64,000 bases of DNA from Solirubrobacteraceae bacterium (GTDB taxonomy: Bacteria; Actinomycetota; Thermoleophilia; Solirubrobacterales; Solirubrobacteraceae), in contig JADGPK010000008.1 of assembly GCA_017882445.1 (NCBI GenBank), forward strand, positions 1-64,000, in the 5' to 3' direction. Below the pieces are notes generated by a model. It worked only from the letters and a program-made list of their open reading frames with translations, was not told the origin of the DNA and did not search any database. The translations under genes and the position numbers were made by a program. Below are positions 4,285 through 54,221 of the stretch, in pieces (the first letter of the stretch is position 1; the number at the start of each line of letters is the position of its first letter).

Positions 4285-5319
4285 CTAGCGGATCAGGCGG
4301 TCCATCCTGGTAGCGGTGATCGTTTCGCGCAGCGTGTGCAGTGCGTCGTGTTTGGGACGCCAGCCAAGCTCGCGCCGCGCCTTGCTCGTGCTCATGATCA
4401 CCGGCTCGCGGAAAGCCGCGATCCACTGCGCCTGCGCGGGCAGGAAGCCGAGCCGCCCGATCGTCTCAGCGATCACGTCCACGGCCAGCTCCGGGACCGG
4501 GATCGAATACCAGCCGAGCTCCTCAGCGAGCACCTTGACGGTCAGCTGACCCGCCCCGGCGAGGTTGTAGACCCCGGGCTCGCCGCGTCCCAGCACGCCC
4601 GCTCGCATCGCGCTAGCCACGTCGTCGTGGTGCACCAGCTGGAACGCGATGCCCGGGTCGGGCAGTACGGGCCGCAGGATGGGCACGCCGTCGAGCAGGC
4701 TGAGAACTGGCCCAGGCAACCGCTCGGAGATCTGCGTGTAGGGCAGGCTGTCGATCAGCAGCGGCGCATCGGGCCCGGCGACGATGCACGGGCGGAAGAC
4801 GAACGCGGCGGTGCTGCTGCCGTGGAGCGTGTCCGCGAGCAGCTCCTCGACCTCTGCCTTCTGGGCCGAGTAGTGGGAAGCGGCGGTCCCGCGTGCGGGG
4901 ACGTCCTCGGTGAGTGGCTGGGGGTTGTCGCGATGAAAGCCGTAGGCGGCCACCGAGGAGGCGTACACGATCCGCTCGACGCCGGCCACCATCGCCGCGT
5001 CGAACACGTTGCGCGAGCCGTCGAGGTTCACCCTACGGCTCTCCTTGGCCCCACCCATGATCATGAAGGCCAGGTGCACGACCACGTCGGCCTCCTCGAC
5101 CAGATCCGCCACGCCTCGGCGGTCGAGCACGTTCCCGCGCCGGTAGGTGACCTTCTTCCAGCCCATCGCGCGGGGGTCAAACGGCCGCCGCGCCATGCCA
5201 AGGATGCGTGTCACAGCGCTCGAGCGCTCGAGCGCGGCCACGACCGCCCGACCCATCTCTCCGGTCGGCCCGGTGATGGCCACGGTGAGGCCTTTGGGGG
5301 AGCTCGCGCGTGGCGCCAT
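4285..5319 (-). CDS. NAD-dependent epimerase/dehydratase (extended SDR)
   Basis: 344 residues with an N-terminal Rossmann fold (VAITGPTGEMGRAVVAAL; GxxGxxG at about 17-23), the NAG-like ribose region and a Y-x3-K active site in HYSAQKAEVEELL, so it is an extended short-chain dehydrogenase of the sugar-epimerase superfamily. The downstream substrate domain is present and the length is normal. The substrate is not apparent. It starts at ATG 5319, divergent from a membrane protein gene; the two start codons are 55 bp apart and must share a compact promoter region. Confidence 0.8.
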   Translation of the reverse strand: MAPRASSPKGLTVAITGPTGEMGRAVVAALERSSAVTRILGMARRPFDPRAMGWKKVTYRRGNVLDRRGVADLVEEADVVVHLAFMIMGGAKESRRVNLDGSRNVFDAAMVAGVERIVYASSVAAYGFHRDNPQPLTEDVPARGTAASHYSAQKAEVEELLADTLHGSSTAAFVFRPCIVAGPDAPLLIDSLPYTQISERLPGPVLSLLDGVPILRPVLPDPGIAFQLVHHDDVASAMRAGVLGRGEPGVYNLAGAGQLTVKVLAEELGWYSIPVPELAVDVIAETIGRLGFLPAQAQWIAAFREPVIMSTSKARRELGWRPKHDALHTLRETITATRMDRLIR

Positions 5320-10667: not shown

Positions 10668-11893
10668 TCTCTGCCAAGGCGCCTCCTCGGCAGCCCCGAC
10701 ATACCCCGCCTCTGCGTCGCCACCCCGAGCGCGGACTGCTCGGCGGCGTGTGCGCCGGGCTGGCCGAGCATTTCCGCGTGGATGTGCGGCTCGTGCGCGT
10801 CGTCATCGCGATGGTGCTCGCCGTGGGCGGAATCGGCGTGGCCGTCTACGCGCTCGCCTGGGCTCTGATCCCCGTTGCGTCCGAGAGTGAGCATCTCGCG
10901 CGCCGGCCGGGCGCCTGGCGCGCGGCCGCGCTGACAGTGCTGGCGGCTGGCGGCCTGTCGGTCGGTCTGCGCCTATCGGGGCTGCGCTTCGACGACGCGG
11001 TCGTCTGGCCGCTCGTGCTCGGGGCCTGTGGCATGGCGCTCGTGTGGCGCCCGACCGTCGCCTCGGCCGGCGCGGCGTCCCTGCGCCGCCGCCGCTCGCT
11101 GCGCGAATACCTACGACGCTCGGGGAGGATCGATGCGCCCCGCCTGGTGATCGGCGCGCTGCTGGTGGCGTTCGCCTCCGCGTCGCTCTTGCACACCGTC
11201 GGGGTGCTGCACAGCCTCGGCAAGGCGATCGGAGCGGTCGCGATCATCGCCACGATGCTGAGCCTGCTGTTCGGGCCGTGGGTCGTGCGGCTCGGGCGCA
11301 GCCTGGCGTCCGAGCGCGCCGCTCGCATTCGCGAGCAGGAGCGCGCGGAGCTGGCCGCGCATCTGCACGACTCGGTCCTGCAGACCCTCGCCCTCATCCA
11401 GAAGCGCGCCGGGGACCCCCGCGAGGTGGCCGGCCTCGCGCGTCGGCAGGAGCGCGAGCTGCGCAGCTGGCTGCTCGAGCGACCGGGCCGCGGCGAACAG
11501 GACAGCGTCGCCGCCGCGCTCGAACGCGCGGCGGCCGAGGTGGAGGAGCTGCATCGCGTGCCGATCGAGGTGGTCACCGTCGGTGACGGGCCGCTCAACG
11601 GCCGGCTCGAGGCGGTGGTGCAGGCGGCTCGCGAGGCGATGACCAACGCCGCGAAGTTCGCCAGAAGCGAGCGCGTCGACCTCTACGCGGAGGTCGAGCC
11701 CGACCGCGTCGAGGTGTTCGTGCGCGATCGCGGCGTCGGCTTCGACCCGCTCACGATCCCCGCCGATCGGCGGGGAGTGCGCGACTCGATCATCGGGCGC
11801 ATGGAGCGCCACCGCGGCCACGCGGCCGTGCACAGCACGCTGGGCGCAGGCACCGAGGTGGAGCTGGTGATGGAGCGAGGATCGACCGCGTGA
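10661..11893 (+). CDS. Sensor histidine kinase with N-terminal PspC domain
   Basis: 410 residues. An N-terminal PspC domain (GLLGGVCAGLAEHFRVDVRLVRV then a hydrophobic hairpin) comes first, followed by two more membrane pairs to about residue 210. A HisKA_3 dimerisation domain follows, with its phospho-accepting histidine in AAHLHDSVLQTL (about 235). The HATPase domain has EAMTNAAKFA (N box), DRGVGFDP and a final GTEVELVMER. PspC-kinase fusions are common in actinobacteria and usually answer to envelope stress. It overlaps the response regulator gene by 4 bp (GTGA), so the two are translationally coupled and form a two-component pair. Confidence 0.9.
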   Translation: MMVSAKAPPRQPRHTPPLRRHPERGLLGGVCAGLAEHFRVDVRLVRVVIAMVLAVGGIGVAVYALAWALIPVASESEHLARRPGAWRAAALTVLAAGGLSVGLRLSGLRFDDAVVWPLVLGACGMALVWRPTVASAGAASLRRRRSLREYLRRSGRIDAPRLVIGALLVAFASASLLHTVGVLHSLGKAIGAVAIIATMLSLLFGPWVVRLGRSLASERAARIREQERAELAAHLHDSVLQTLALIQKRAGDPREVAGLARRQERELRSWLLERPGRGEQDSVAAALERAAAEVEELHRVPIEVVTVGDGPLNGRLEAVVQAAREAMTNAAKFARSERVDLYAEVEPDRVEVFVRDRGVGFDPLTIPADRRGVRDSIIGRMERHRGHAAVHSTLGAGTEVELVMERGSTA

Positions 11894-12561
11894 ACCGAGC
11901 GCCGCGTGTGGTGATCGTCGACGATCACCACCTGTTTCGCTCAGGCGTCCGTGCGGAGCTCGGCGAGGAGGTCGAGGTTGTCGGCGACGCGGGTGGCGTC
12001 GAAGAGGCGGTCGCGATCATCCGGGAAGAGCGACCGGATGTGGTCCTCCTGGACGTGCACATGCCCGACGGTGGAGGGGTCGAGGTGATCGCCCGCGTGA
12101 GCTCAGAGCAGCCGAGCGTGCGGTTCCTCGCGCTGTCGGTGTCCGACGCCGCCGAGGACGTCATCGCGGTCATCCGCGCGGGTGCGCGCGGGTATGTGAC
12201 CAAGACGATCTCGGGCGCGGAGCTGGTGGACGCCGTGCGTCGCGTCGCGGGCGGCGATGCGGTGTTCTCGCCGCGTCTCGCCGGCTTCGTTCTCGACGCG
12301 TTCGCGGCAGACCGGTCTCAGGTCGGCCAGCCTCCCACCGAGGACCCGGAGCTCGACCAGCTCACTCCGCGCGAGCGCGAGGTGCTCCGTCACATCGCCC
12401 GCGGGTACATGTACAAGGAGGTCGCCCAGCGCCTCGGCATCTCGGTCAAGACGGTCGAGGCACACGTCTCGGCCGTCCTGCGCAAGCTGCAGCTGTCAAG
12501 TCGCCACGAGCTCAGCCGCTGGGCCGTCCAGAGGCGGCTGGTGAGTCTCGACGGGCCCTGA
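11890..12561 (+). CDS. NarL/LuxR-family response regulator
   Basis: 223 residues. The receiver domain has the acidic pair DD at 11-12, the phosphorylation site Asp55 (VVLLDVHMPD) and a Lys in VTKTISGAEL. The output domain is LuxR-type: LTPREREVLRHIARG at about 158, then GISVKTVEAHVSAVLRKL as recognition helix. Its start GTG overlaps the kinase stop, so it is the cognate partner. Target genes are not known; the ABC exporter genes 73 bp downstream are candidates, because kinases of this type often control neighbouring transporters (inference). Confidence 0.92.
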   Translation: MNRAPRVVIVDDHHLFRSGVRAELGEEVEVVGDAGGVEEAVAIIREERPDVVLLDVHMPDGGGVEVIARVSSEQPSVRFLALSVSDAAEDVIAVIRAGARGYVTKTISGAELVDAVRRVAGGDAVFSPRLAGFVLDAFAADRSQVGQPPTEDPELDQLTPREREVLRHIARGYMYKEVAQRLGISVKTVEAHVSAVLRKLQLSSRHELSRWAVQRRLVSLDGP

Positions 12562-33628: not shown

Positions 33629-34096
33629 ATGACGCAGGCGATCGTGGCGGGCGCGCTCGCGGTCGCGGCGCTCAATGCGGTTTCGGGAGGGCTCGGAGCG
33701 TGGATCTGGTATCGAGGTGATCCGAGCGCTCGCCGATCGGCGAGCGCCTTCTGGGTGATGCTGCGGGTGGGGCAGGGCTCGGCGCTCACGCTCGCGGTGG
33801 CCGTCGGCTCGCTGGCGGCGGCGGGCTTCTATCCGAAGGAACAGCTGTTCTTCCTGTACGCGCTGCTGCCGCTCGCGGTCGCCTTCATAGCCGAGCAGCT
33901 GCGTGTGACCTCGGCCCAGACGATCCTCGACCAGCAGCGTCTAAAGGACGCTCAGGCCGTGGGGCGATTGCCCGAGCCCGAGCAACAGGCGCTCGCCGCG
34001 GCGGTCATGCGCCGCGAGATGGGCGTGATGACGCTGTCGGCGCTCGTGGTGGTCTTCCTCGTCCTGCGCGCCGCGTCCACGGCCAACGGGTTCTGA
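33629..34096 (+). CDS. Small membrane protein of unknown function
   Basis: 155 residues from ATG 33629; a GTG at 33593 in the same frame would add 12 residues. Four hydrophobic helices are visible (IVAGALAVAALNAVSGGLGAW, SALTLAVAVGSLAAAGF, LFFLYALLPLAVAFIAEQL and the C-terminal MTLSALVVVFLVLRAAS). A soluble loop between helices 3 and 4 contains EPEQQALAAAVMRREMG. No family recognised. It is divergent from the complex I operon and stands before a cytochrome c gene, which hints at the respiratory membrane but proves nothing. Confidence 0.6.
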   Translation: MTQAIVAGALAVAALNAVSGGLGAWIWYRGDPSARRSASAFWVMLRVGQGSALTLAVAVGSLAAAGFYPKEQLFFLYALLPLAVAFIAEQLRVTSAQTILDQQRLKDAQAVGRLPEPEQQALAAAVMRREMGVMTLSALVVVFLVLRAASTANGF

Positions 34097-51168: not shown

Positions 51169-52605
51169 ATGGCGAGCACAACAGAGATCCTCGGCAACTT
51201 CATCGACGGGGAGCGCGTAGCGTGCCAGGGTGAGACCGAACCGATCGTCAACCCCGCGACCGGAGAGGAGCTCGCACGCGCGCCGAAGTCGAGCGCCGAG
51301 GACGTGGACCGCGCCGTGCAGGCCGCGCGTGGAGCCTTCGAGGGCTGGTCGAGCACGACACCGGCGCAGCGCGCGCACGCGCTGCTGGCGCTCGCGGACC
51401 TCATCGAGGAGCACGGCGCCGAGATCGCCCGCCTGGAGGCCCTGAACGCGGGCAAGCCGATCGAAGCCGTCACCAACGACGAGATCCCCGTGATGGCCGA
51501 CAACCTGCGCTTCTTCGCCGGCGCCGCCCGCTGCCTGGAGGGCAGGGCGGCGGGCGAGTACATGGAGGGCTACACCTCGTTCACCCGGCGTGAGGCGGTC
51601 GGCGTCATCGGGCAGATCACCCCTTGGAACTACCCGCTGATGATGGCCATCTGGAAGGTCGCACCGGCGCTGGCGGGCGGAAACACGGTGGTGCTGAAGC
51701 CGGCGGAGACGACGCCGATCACGACCATCCGGCTCGCCGAGCTGGCCTCGGAGGTTCTGCCCAAGGGCGTGCTGAACGTCGTCACCGGTCCCGGCCTGCC
51801 GACCGGGCAGGCGCTCATCAGCCATCCCGACGTGGACATGGTCTCGCTGACCGGATCGGTGGACACCGGCAGGCACGTCGCGCGCACGGCCGCGGACACC
51901 CTCAAACGCGTGCACCTCGAGCTCGGCGGCAAGGCTCCGGTCGTGGTGTTCGACGACGTGAGCCTGCAGAGCGCGCTGGAGACGATCGCGGGAACCGGCT
52001 ATTACAACGCTGGACAGGACTGCACGGCGGCCACGCGGGTGCTGGCGGGCGCCAACGTCTACGACGACGTCGTCAGCGGCCTCGCCGAGCAGGCGAAGGG
52101 GCTCGTCATCGGCGACACGCTCGCGCCCGGGACGACCCTGGGCCCGGTCAACTCGGCCCGGCAGCGCGAGCGGGTGGCGGGCTTCCTCGCGCGCAGGCCT
52201 GAGCACGCGGAGATCGTGACCGGAGGTGGCGAGCCCGACAGGCCCGGCTTCTACCTGGAGCCGACGGTGGTCGCAGGTCTGCGGCAGGACGACGAGATGA
52301 TCCAGCGCGAGATCTTCGGCCCGGTCATCACCGTCCAGCGTTTCTCTGACGAGGAGCAGGCGATCTCGTGGGCGAACGCGACGCGCTACGGGCTGGCCTC
52401 GTCGGTGTGGACGCGCGACGTGGGCCGTGCCCTGCGCGTGTCCAGGGCGCTGCGCTTCGGGTGTGTGTGGATCAACGATCACATTCCGCTCGTGTCCGAG
52501 ATGCCCCACGGCGGCTTCAAGGAGTCCGGCTACGGCAAGGACCTGAGCGTCTACTCGCTGGAGGACTACACGGTCGTCAAGCACGTGATGGCCAGCCTGC
52601 AGTAG
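51169..52605 (+). CDS. Aldehyde dehydrogenase, gamma-aminobutyraldehyde type
   Basis: 478 residues, NAD(P)-dependent ALDH superfamily. The nucleotide site is [31 protein letters not shown], the general base Glu is in [14 protein letters not shown], and the nucleophilic Cys is in [14 protein letters not shown]. The C-terminal [20 protein letters not shown] then [20 protein letters not shown] is characteristic of gamma-aminobutyraldehyde dehydrogenases (PatD-like), which turn 4-aminobutanal into GABA. It completes a putrescine route with the transaminase, the PucR regulator, Ald and the permease. Ends in TAG, followed after 2 bp by the palindrome array. Confidence 0.88.
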
Positions 52606-52607
52606 AT

Positions 52608-52679
52608 CCGGTCGGCGCATGCGCCGACCGGCCGAGCGGTGCATGCACCGCTCGGTGGACCCGCACATGTGCGGGTCCA
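52608..52679. repeat. Three abutting 24-bp perfect palindromes with CATG centres
   Basis: Units 52608-52631, 52632-52655 and 52656-52679 touch without a spacer. Each is two 10-base perfect arms around CATG: arms start CCGGTCGGCG, CCGAGCGGTG and TGGACCCGCA. The arm sequences differ but length (24) and loop are identical, so as RNA or as DNA they make three 10-bp stems with the same tetraloop. No U-tract follows. Confidence 0.85.
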
Positions 52680-52931: not shown

Positions 52932-54221
52932 ATGCAGCATGAAACTTTCGCCGACCTCGGCGTGTCCGAGGTCGTCGTGAATGAGCTCGCCAAGGCCGGG
53001 GTCACGACGCCGTTCGCAGTTCAGAACATGGTCGTCCCCGATGTCCTCGCGGGACATGACGTGCTCGCGCAGTCGCCGACAGGCTCGGGCAAGACGCTCG
53101 CCTTCGGCGTGCCGCTCGTCGAGCTCCTGAAGGACTCCGACGCCCGCCCTTCGGCGCTGATCCTCGCTCCCACCAGGGAGCTCGCGATCCAGATCGTCGA
53201 CGATCTGCGCCCCATCGCGCATGCCCGCGCGCTGTCCATCGCCGCCGTTTACGGTGGCGCCGGCATCATCAAGCAGGCGCGTCTCGCCGGGCGCGCGCAC
53301 ATCCTCGTCGCTACGCCGGGCCGCCTGCTCGACCTGATCAACCGCAGGGACGTGTCGCTCGCCCGCATCCGCATCCTCGTGCTCGACGAGGCCGACAGGA
53401 TGCTGGACATGGGCTTCCGGCCGGTGGTCGACAGGATCGTGAAGATGACTCAGGCCAAGCGCCAGACGCTCCTGTTCTCGGCCACGTTGGAGGGCGAGGT
53501 GGGACGGATCGCCAAGGCCTACACCACCACTCCGCGCCGCCACGAGCATTCCCACCCGGTCGAGCGCAAGGCCGACGTGGCCCACCGCTTCGTCATGGTC
53601 ACCCACGAGGGCAAGGTGGAGCGCCTGGTTTCAGAACTGGGCAAGCCCGAGCGCGGGTTGACGCTCGTGTTCGTGCGCACCAAGCGCGGGGCGGACAGGC
53701 TCGTCAAGCGCCTCGCCTCCAGCAGCGTGCAGGCCGTCGCGATGCACGGCGACAAGTCCCAGGGGCAGCGCCAGCGCGCCCTGGCCAACTTCGAGGCCGG
53801 AGTCGTAGACACGCTCGTCGCCACCGACGTCGCCGCTCGCGGGATCGACGTGGCGGGGATCACGCACGTCATCAACTACGACATTCCCGCCAGTCGCGAG
53901 GACTATGTGCACCGCATCGGGCGGACCGCCCGCGCGGGAGCCAGCGGCGTGGGCGTGACACTCGTGGCGCACGACCAGGCACGCGAACTCGCGGGCATGG
54001 TCAGCGAGCTCGGCTTGCATCAGGAGCTCGAGCTGGCCGGCATGAGCCCCGGCCGCGGTGCGCGAAACGGCGCTCCTCGCTCGAGGACAGCCTCCGACGG
54101 GAACAGCTCCAGGCACGGCGATCGTCGACCCAGCGCAGCCAAGGGCCAGGGGGAGCGTTCGGGCGGCGCCTCGCGCAACGGGTCCTCCCGGCGCGCAAGG
54201 GCATCCGGCCGAGCCAGGTAG
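52932..54221 (+). CDS. DEAD-box ATP-dependent RNA helicase
   Basis: 429 residues. All family motifs are visible: Q motif (VTTPFAVQNMVVPDVLAG), motif I AQSPTGSGKT, Ia PTRELA, TPGR, II VLDEADRM, III SAT, then FVRTKRGADRLVKRL, TDVAARGIDV and HRIGRTARAG. The last 50 residues are a basic, Ser/Arg-rich RNA-binding tail of RhlE type. It unwinds RNA, probably in ribosome assembly or cold adaptation. AAGGAG lies 11 nt upstream of the ATG, and the leader is long and structured, unlike the leaderless genes here. Confidence 0.92.
   Translation: MQHETFADLGVSEVVVNELAKAGVTTPFAVQNMVVPDVLAGHDVLAQSPTGSGKTLAFGVPLVELLKDSDARPSALILAPTRELAIQIVDDLRPIAHARALSIAAVYGGAGIIKQARLAGRAHILVATPGRLLDLINRRDVSLARIRILVLDEADRMLDMGFRPVVDRIVKMTQAKRQTLLFSATLEGEVGRIAKAYTTTPRRHEHSHPVERKADVAHRFVMVTHEGKVERLVSELGKPERGLTLVFVRTKRGADRLVKRLASSSVQAVAMHGDKSQGQRQRALANFEAGVVDTLVATDVAARGIDVAGITHVINYDIPASREDYVHRIGRTARAGASGVGVTLVAHDQARELAGMVSELGLHQELELAGMSPGRGARNGAPRSRTASDGNSSRHGDRRPSAAKGQGERSGGASRNGSSRRARASGRAR

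Follow-up and report, generated by a model that had tools for sequence, protein, structure and literature searches.

Dispersed arrays of CATG-tipped hairpins with paired but changing stems in Solirubrobacterales: a candidate mobile element

The analyzed stretch, hereafter the window, comprises 64,000 nucleotides of contig JADGPK010000008.1 (positions 1 to 64,000) from a Solirubrobacteraceae bacterium. At 52608-52679 it contains an array of three abutting 24-bp perfect palindromes, each with 10-bp arms around a CATG centre, exactly in the sequence and at the coordinates given by the original prediction, which had been made from the letters of the window. The array lies between an aldehyde dehydrogenase gene and a DEAD-box helicase gene; the arm classes and the end tag named in the following list are those of the wider family of arrays described below.

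51169..52605, strand +: upstream aldehyde dehydrogenase family gene (PF00171), aminobutyraldehyde-dehydrogenase-like
52602..52607, strand +: end-tag position before the alpha unit, a degenerate GTAGAT against the consensus GCTGTT, overlapping the TAG stop codon
52608..52631, no strand: unit 1 (class alpha), 24-bp perfect palindrome CCGGTCGGCG-CATG-CGCCGACCGG
52632..52655, no strand: unit 2 (alpha-like), 24-bp perfect palindrome CCGAGCGGTG-CATG-CACCGCTCGG
52656..52679, no strand: unit 3 (class beta), 24-bp perfect palindrome TGGACCCGCA-CATG-TGCGGGTCCA
52932..54221, strand +: downstream DEAD-box helicase gene

The array begins 2 bp after the dehydrogenase stop codon (52603-52605), and the helicase gene starts 252 bp beyond its end. 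It thus stands before the helicase gene, as predicted, but just outside the dehydrogenase gene rather than within its 3' region. Apart from the three units, the window contains no CATG palindrome with arms of at least 7 bp. Single perfect palindromes with arms of 10-12 bp and other centres are found at 5216-5235, 11757-11776, 11908-11931, and 33726-33747. A DNA search of the dehydrogenase gene against plasmids returned only ordinary dehydrogenase homologues.

Comparison of this site with other genomes (G000 is the window genome and G002 a congener; most of the genomes are incomplete metagenome-assembled genomes, MAGs) revealed both a changed copy and empty sites. The orthologous array of genome G005 has identical units 1 and 2, a different unit 3 with both arms changed (GGGAACCGCG-CATG-CGCGGTTCCC), and an additional fourth unit, and its tag position reads GTAGTT. 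The dehydrogenase/helicase gene pair is found without an array in six congeners (G002, G003, G004, G013, G015, and G019).

The original prediction expected such arrays at further sites and in related genomes, and they were found at many. Solirubrobacterales genomes yielded a collection of 93 distinct arrays, comprising 305 units in all. The pattern CATG-N20-CATG-N20-CATG occurs at seven places in the window genome, all of which are sets of perfect or near-perfect palindromes with differing arms, whereas the reversed-pattern control gave none. A partial census of this genome yielded at least 10 arrays, and about two arrays in 372 kb of G002 extrapolate roughly to some 18 per genome. Within an 828-kb sample of the two genomes, for which part of the G000 DNA had been picked for already-known arrays, 26 CATG palindromes with arms of at least 9 bp were observed against none in order-3 Markov simulations; palindromes with other centres numbered 47 against 21.5 simulated. 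When tandem hairpins were sought with the 3-8 nt loop left free, only CATG arrays emerged, apart from one spurious pair that overlapped and one CACG unit belonging to an array. The probability that the arrays arise by chance or as assembly artefacts is negligible, and we consider this explanation ruled out by the zero controls, the occurrence of arrays in MAGs from several projects, and the covariation seen at orthologous sites.

The arrays are restricted to one family and patchy within it. The pattern matched 26 of 146 genomes of the family, from 4 of 25 genera (18 of 24 genomes in genus g1, 2 of 4 in g2, 1 in g14, and 6 of about 27 in g25), and the control was zero in every genome; most genomes of the window genus carry arrays. 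A class-wide sample of 399 genomes gave 16 positives, all in the same family, and approximately 290 genomes of the class outside this family had no arrays. A pattern search across 84,980 genomes of bacteria and archaea returned at least 119 stretches; among the matches listed, 21 proved to be palindromic arrays, of which 20 come from Solirubrobacterales records and the remaining one from an unclassified actinomycete MAG. We rejected a phage origin or a phage-borne element, since none of the 23 pattern matches in IMG/VR viral contigs is palindromic. No description of this geometry was found in the literature.

Comparison of the assembled arrays revealed several characteristic features: (i) most arrays consist of three units (75 arrays), others of four (12), five (4), or six (2), while no arrays of one or two units were seen in the unbiased sample, and the pair-pattern matches lying elsewhere proved, in the regions read, not to be palindromes; (ii) units are spaced by 24 bp, occasionally by 23, 25, or 26 bp, and their inner nine pairs are perfect in 279 of 305 units; (iii) the arms fall into three classes within each genus, termed alpha, beta, and gamma, with a class consensus that varies between genera; an array normally combines three different classes, and the commonest unit order in g1 is alpha-beta-gamma or its reverse; (iv) the sequence GCTGTT stands as a tag outside the alpha unit (37 ends match at 5 or more of 6 positions in exact register, compared with a mean of 1 at other offsets), also in several genera whose stems differ, and TTCC is preferred outside the gamma unit. 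The full element is therefore about 80-90 bp long and reads GCTGTT-alpha-beta-gamma-TTCC, with 10-bp stems and CATG tips flanked by pyrimidine-purine (Y-R) steps on both sides. Position -1 from the tip is a purine and position -2 a pyrimidine in essentially all units, a conservation that is biased because part of the set was retrieved with the pattern YRCATGYR; arrays retrieved by the CATG-only pattern show the same steps with few exceptions. The three-hairpin fold is stable (-59.9 kcal/mol).

The stems are much more diverse than the tips: 302 units contain 204 distinct 9-mer arms. Arms within an array are less alike than arms of different arrays in one genome (mean Hamming distance 5.43 vs 4.38), which rules out simple tandem duplication. 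The CATG tip is near-invariant, with three CACG units beside the 305 CATG units. These CACG-tipped units, the only loop variants seen, flank arrays at three loci (L004:1441-1462, L264 near 1426, and L002 near 1576); their stems are intact or nearly so, and they are possibly losing recognition.

Many arrays occupy orthologous sites across species and even genera, which allowed us to compare their stems. About one third of the stem pairs differ between orthologous copies and almost none are broken: both partners changed in 142 pairs and a single partner in 4, although species pairs inside a group are not independent in this comparison. Among 36 aligned 72-bp arrays, two-sided changes occur at all 30 stem pairs, 99.1% of the stem cells pair (69.6% after shuffling), and the covariation score is 0.767, compared with 0.199 for shuffled and at most 0.128 for slid arrays. 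Thus, the fold and the tip are conserved rather than the sequence. The original prediction had read identical geometry with divergent arms as structural constraint rather than recent duplication and proposed covariation of the arms as a check; the counts and scores above bear out both points.

The manner of change is informative as to the level of the constraint. Watson-Crick pairs fill 2531 of 2580 stem cells, with 6 G.T and 8 A.C mismatches. By contrast, G.U or G.T pairs are reported for many GTAG REPs (PMC3733652). Paired changes comprise 54 transitions and 88 transversions, similar to the flanks (204 and 433), and C-G swaps, which cannot pass via G.U, are the commonest. A constraint on RNA should leave G.U intermediates, which are not seen beyond the level of A.C; the pattern therefore favors a structure at the DNA level, a need for pairing on both strands, or templated copying of one arm in a single step.

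Such copying leads to an explanation in which the arrays are old palindromic repeats without function that owe their perfection solely to hairpin-templated template switching as the DNA is replicated. Perfect stems are known to arise through template switching and to be repaired by it (PMC8794818), and the paired changes do mirror the ambient substitution spectrum without wobble intermediates. However, this process leaves the unpaired tip unprotected, even though conservation is highest at CATG and the adjoining Y-R steps (the latter partly imposed by later search patterns); other palindromes of the same genomes exceed simulation only modestly and form no arrays, and neither the tag nor the minimum of three units is explained. 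We regard this explanation as improbable; since correction alone would not protect the tip, a factor reading sequence would still be required. It is slightly less probable again that the arrays are double-stranded DNA sites, with a dimeric nucleoid or regulatory protein bound to clustered YRCATGYR cores. The strict core, the palindromic symmetry, the clustering, and the independence from gene orientation would suit such a protein, but a dimer site needs no complementary, freely changing arms at positions 3-10, where 99% of stem cells are paired.

Further constraints come from the genomic sites, for which genes were called with a codon-usage gene caller built for this analysis. The 93 arrays are distributed between co-directional genes (43), convergent genes (27), and divergent genes (9), within open reading frames (ORFs; 10), and at contig edges (4). 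Convergent gaps are over-represented: they hold 27 of the 79 intergenic arrays with both neighbours called, compared with 10% of all gaps of at least 72 bp. For co-directional arrays the median distance to the stop codon is 14 bp, and 35 of the 43 are closer to that stop than to the following start; for convergent arrays the median distance to the stops is 10.5 bp. Among the genes beside arrays are ftsZ and those for a primary-type sigma factor and lysyl-tRNA synthetase. Relative to the gene, the unit order occurs in both directions (5 vs 9). A perfect 26-bp palindrome, CGCTGTATCACCATGGTGATACAGCG, was observed between a gcvT-like gene and ftsZ (L004:1360-1385; G000 contig 156, 38650-38675); it is AT-richer and unlike the array units and looks like the operator of a regulator.

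The preference for gene ends is what would be expected of an RNA element, in which hairpins in the mRNA protect 3' ends or process or terminate transcripts in a U-tract-free manner, the CAUG tip being read by an RNA-binding protein or an RNase. Both the short distances to stop codons and the excess of convergent sites agree with this explanation, as does the stable three-hairpin fold, and clustered hairpins have been reported as terminators (PMC8355165). On the other hand, no U-tract follows the arrays in either direction, so the predicted absence of a T-tract, and with it the doubt about a plain intrinsic terminator, holds at both ends. Ten arrays lie inside ORFs and nine between divergent genes, and G.U is not favored over A.C. 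The next gene starts within 30 bp in 16 of the 43 co-directional pairs, including gaps of 24 bp between pheS and pheT and 25 bp before lepA, gaps too short to house a new promoter. The ORF insertions and the tight gene pairs rule out an obligate terminator as the sole function, and we consider an RNA element in the broader sense unlikely.

The arrays inside ORFs are in frame, and three of the host genes were confirmed by Pfam. The insertion in an ABC-F gene is located behind the ATPase domain in 6 of 17 genomes (six species), and that in the leucyl-tRNA synthetase (LeuRS) gene between the catalytic and anticodon-binding domains in 4 of 20 genomes; both are absent from the other genomes. The third, in a diaminopimelate-type decarboxylase gene, lies within the PLP-binding domain in one species. 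The encoded peptide shows no conservation except at the residues that CATG dictates, whereas the fold is conserved. The LeuRS array of G008 (L385, near 896-944) is visibly decaying, with 9, 8, and 6 of the 9 inner pairs left in its units.

The dispersal of the arrays, the empty sites, the in-frame insertions, the occurrence of both orders, and the tag at one end argue that the element has moved, while the free stems together with the constant tip and tag argue that tip, tag, and fold are being read. We therefore propose, with a probability of roughly 0.5, that the window array is one copy of a non-autonomous hairpin-array element, dispersed and probably mobile, which a factor recognizes as a folded strand through its tip and tag. 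This factor would be a protein or an RNA, and the strand most likely single-stranded DNA, as for REP transposases. Group-3 REP transposases read the loop and the tag of perfect hairpins; several positions of the stem tolerate exchange, whereas mismatches in it impair activity (PMC8266576). The putative factor would read the CATG tip, its closing Y-R pairs, and the tag and ignore the letters of the stem, which would then be free to drift as long as they pair. Mismatches would be removed or copied onto the other arm, by selection, by hairpin-templated template-switch repair, or by both. The difference between neighbouring stems would ensure that each hairpin folds on itself. More tentatively, the family may be an element defined by its shape and not by its sequence: an ordered series of three or more differing hairpins, each ending in an unchanging CATG tip, that has dispersed within a bacterial family, is kept by strict Watson-Crick co-evolution even in essential genes, and is recognized by a factor blind to the stem.

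Several observations weigh against the proposed mobile element. Y1_Tnp (PF01797) is absent from 23 of the 24 genomes of the genus, including the window genome, and Y2_Tnp (IS91-type) is present in only one of the 24, so that no candidate enzyme is shared; a RAYT or an IS91-type partner was rejected on this basis. Neither target-site duplications nor transposition events were seen, and copies are few (at least 10 arrays in the window genome, about 18 per genome by extrapolation). At some sites the array persists across genera (G186, G179, and G048), suggesting that the copy in place serves a purpose. Old copies would not stay perfect through mobility alone; long-lived perfect copies at orthologous sites need local use or hairpin-templated correction as well. 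The two IS91-type Y2 transposase genes found among the 24 congeners are both in the window genome, on contigs C10 (2541-3080) and C118 (531-1034).

By the tests made, the array element belongs to no named family. It resembles REPs and BIMEs in its short hairpins at intergenic 3' positions, the mosaics of few unit types, the unpaired tag at one end, and the occasional insertion into ORFs (PMC3733652, PMC8266576, PMC2817692), and group-3 REPs in particular are perfect palindromes with a loop that is read (PMC8266576). Like REPs, the arrays are extragenic and mostly behind genes, yet 10 of 93 lie in ORFs. They differ from REPs in that they (i) carry the conserved tag GCTGTT and no GTAG or CGTC tag, (ii) occur without a RAYT in 23 of 24 genomes, (iii) have unconserved stems and a low copy number, (iv) show no excess of G.T pairs, which are common in GTAG REPs (PMC3733652), and (v) always form abutting sets of at least three different stems. 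As Y1 is mostly absent, the IS91-type Y2 is confined to one genome, the tag differs, and the stems are unconserved, the element is not a REP by the tests made. Among the options listed with the original prediction, a REP-like family is still the best as a working mode, although neither the GTAG tag nor the co-occurring RAYT transposase that it would entail was found as a shared feature of the genus.

Rickettsia palindromic elements (RPEs) are palindromes found both between genes and in frame within protein-coding genes. The arrays share these two kinds of site, but each RPE family is one sequence-conserved palindrome, whereas the arrays are sets of three to six short hairpins with free stems that have in common only the tip, the tag, and a weak class consensus. 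The tag of the R. conorii RPE is CGTC (PMC3733652). The mitochondrial double-hairpin and repetitive hairpin elements of Allomyces and sponges are likewise dispersed, multi-hairpin, patchy among relatives, and inserted into genes (PMC2800124); however, they are organellar, and the sponge elements show the reverse of the arrays, with conserved stems and variable loops. Clustered-hairpin terminators without a U-tract are similar in having adjacent hairpins right after stop codons (PMC8355165), but have no constant loop, period, tag, three-class order, or insertion into reading frames. The outward flanks of the arrays are AACAGC and TTCC, and not the U-tract of an intrinsic terminator. ANTAR-target RNAs are tandem hairpins with variable stems that are read via hexanucleotide loops with A at position 1 and G at position 4. 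The arrays share the loop-read tandem arrangement and the variable stems but have a CATG tetraloop; read as six bases, R-CATG-Y has mostly G at position 1 and T at position 4. The best Rfam score was 24.7 bits, and all scores were below the gathering threshold; thus, a known RNA family was rejected.

Repeat finders would miss these arrays because their stems do not align. The family documents with unusual clarity how paired stems evolve in nature, and with it the origin of compensated changes, by point mutation and selection or by one-step hairpin-templated copying, is now directly testable, as is the question of which factor could recognize hairpins by tip and fold irrespective of the stem. 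It also brings to free-living actinobacteria an in-frame invasion of core genes by structured DNA that is known mainly from Rickettsia.
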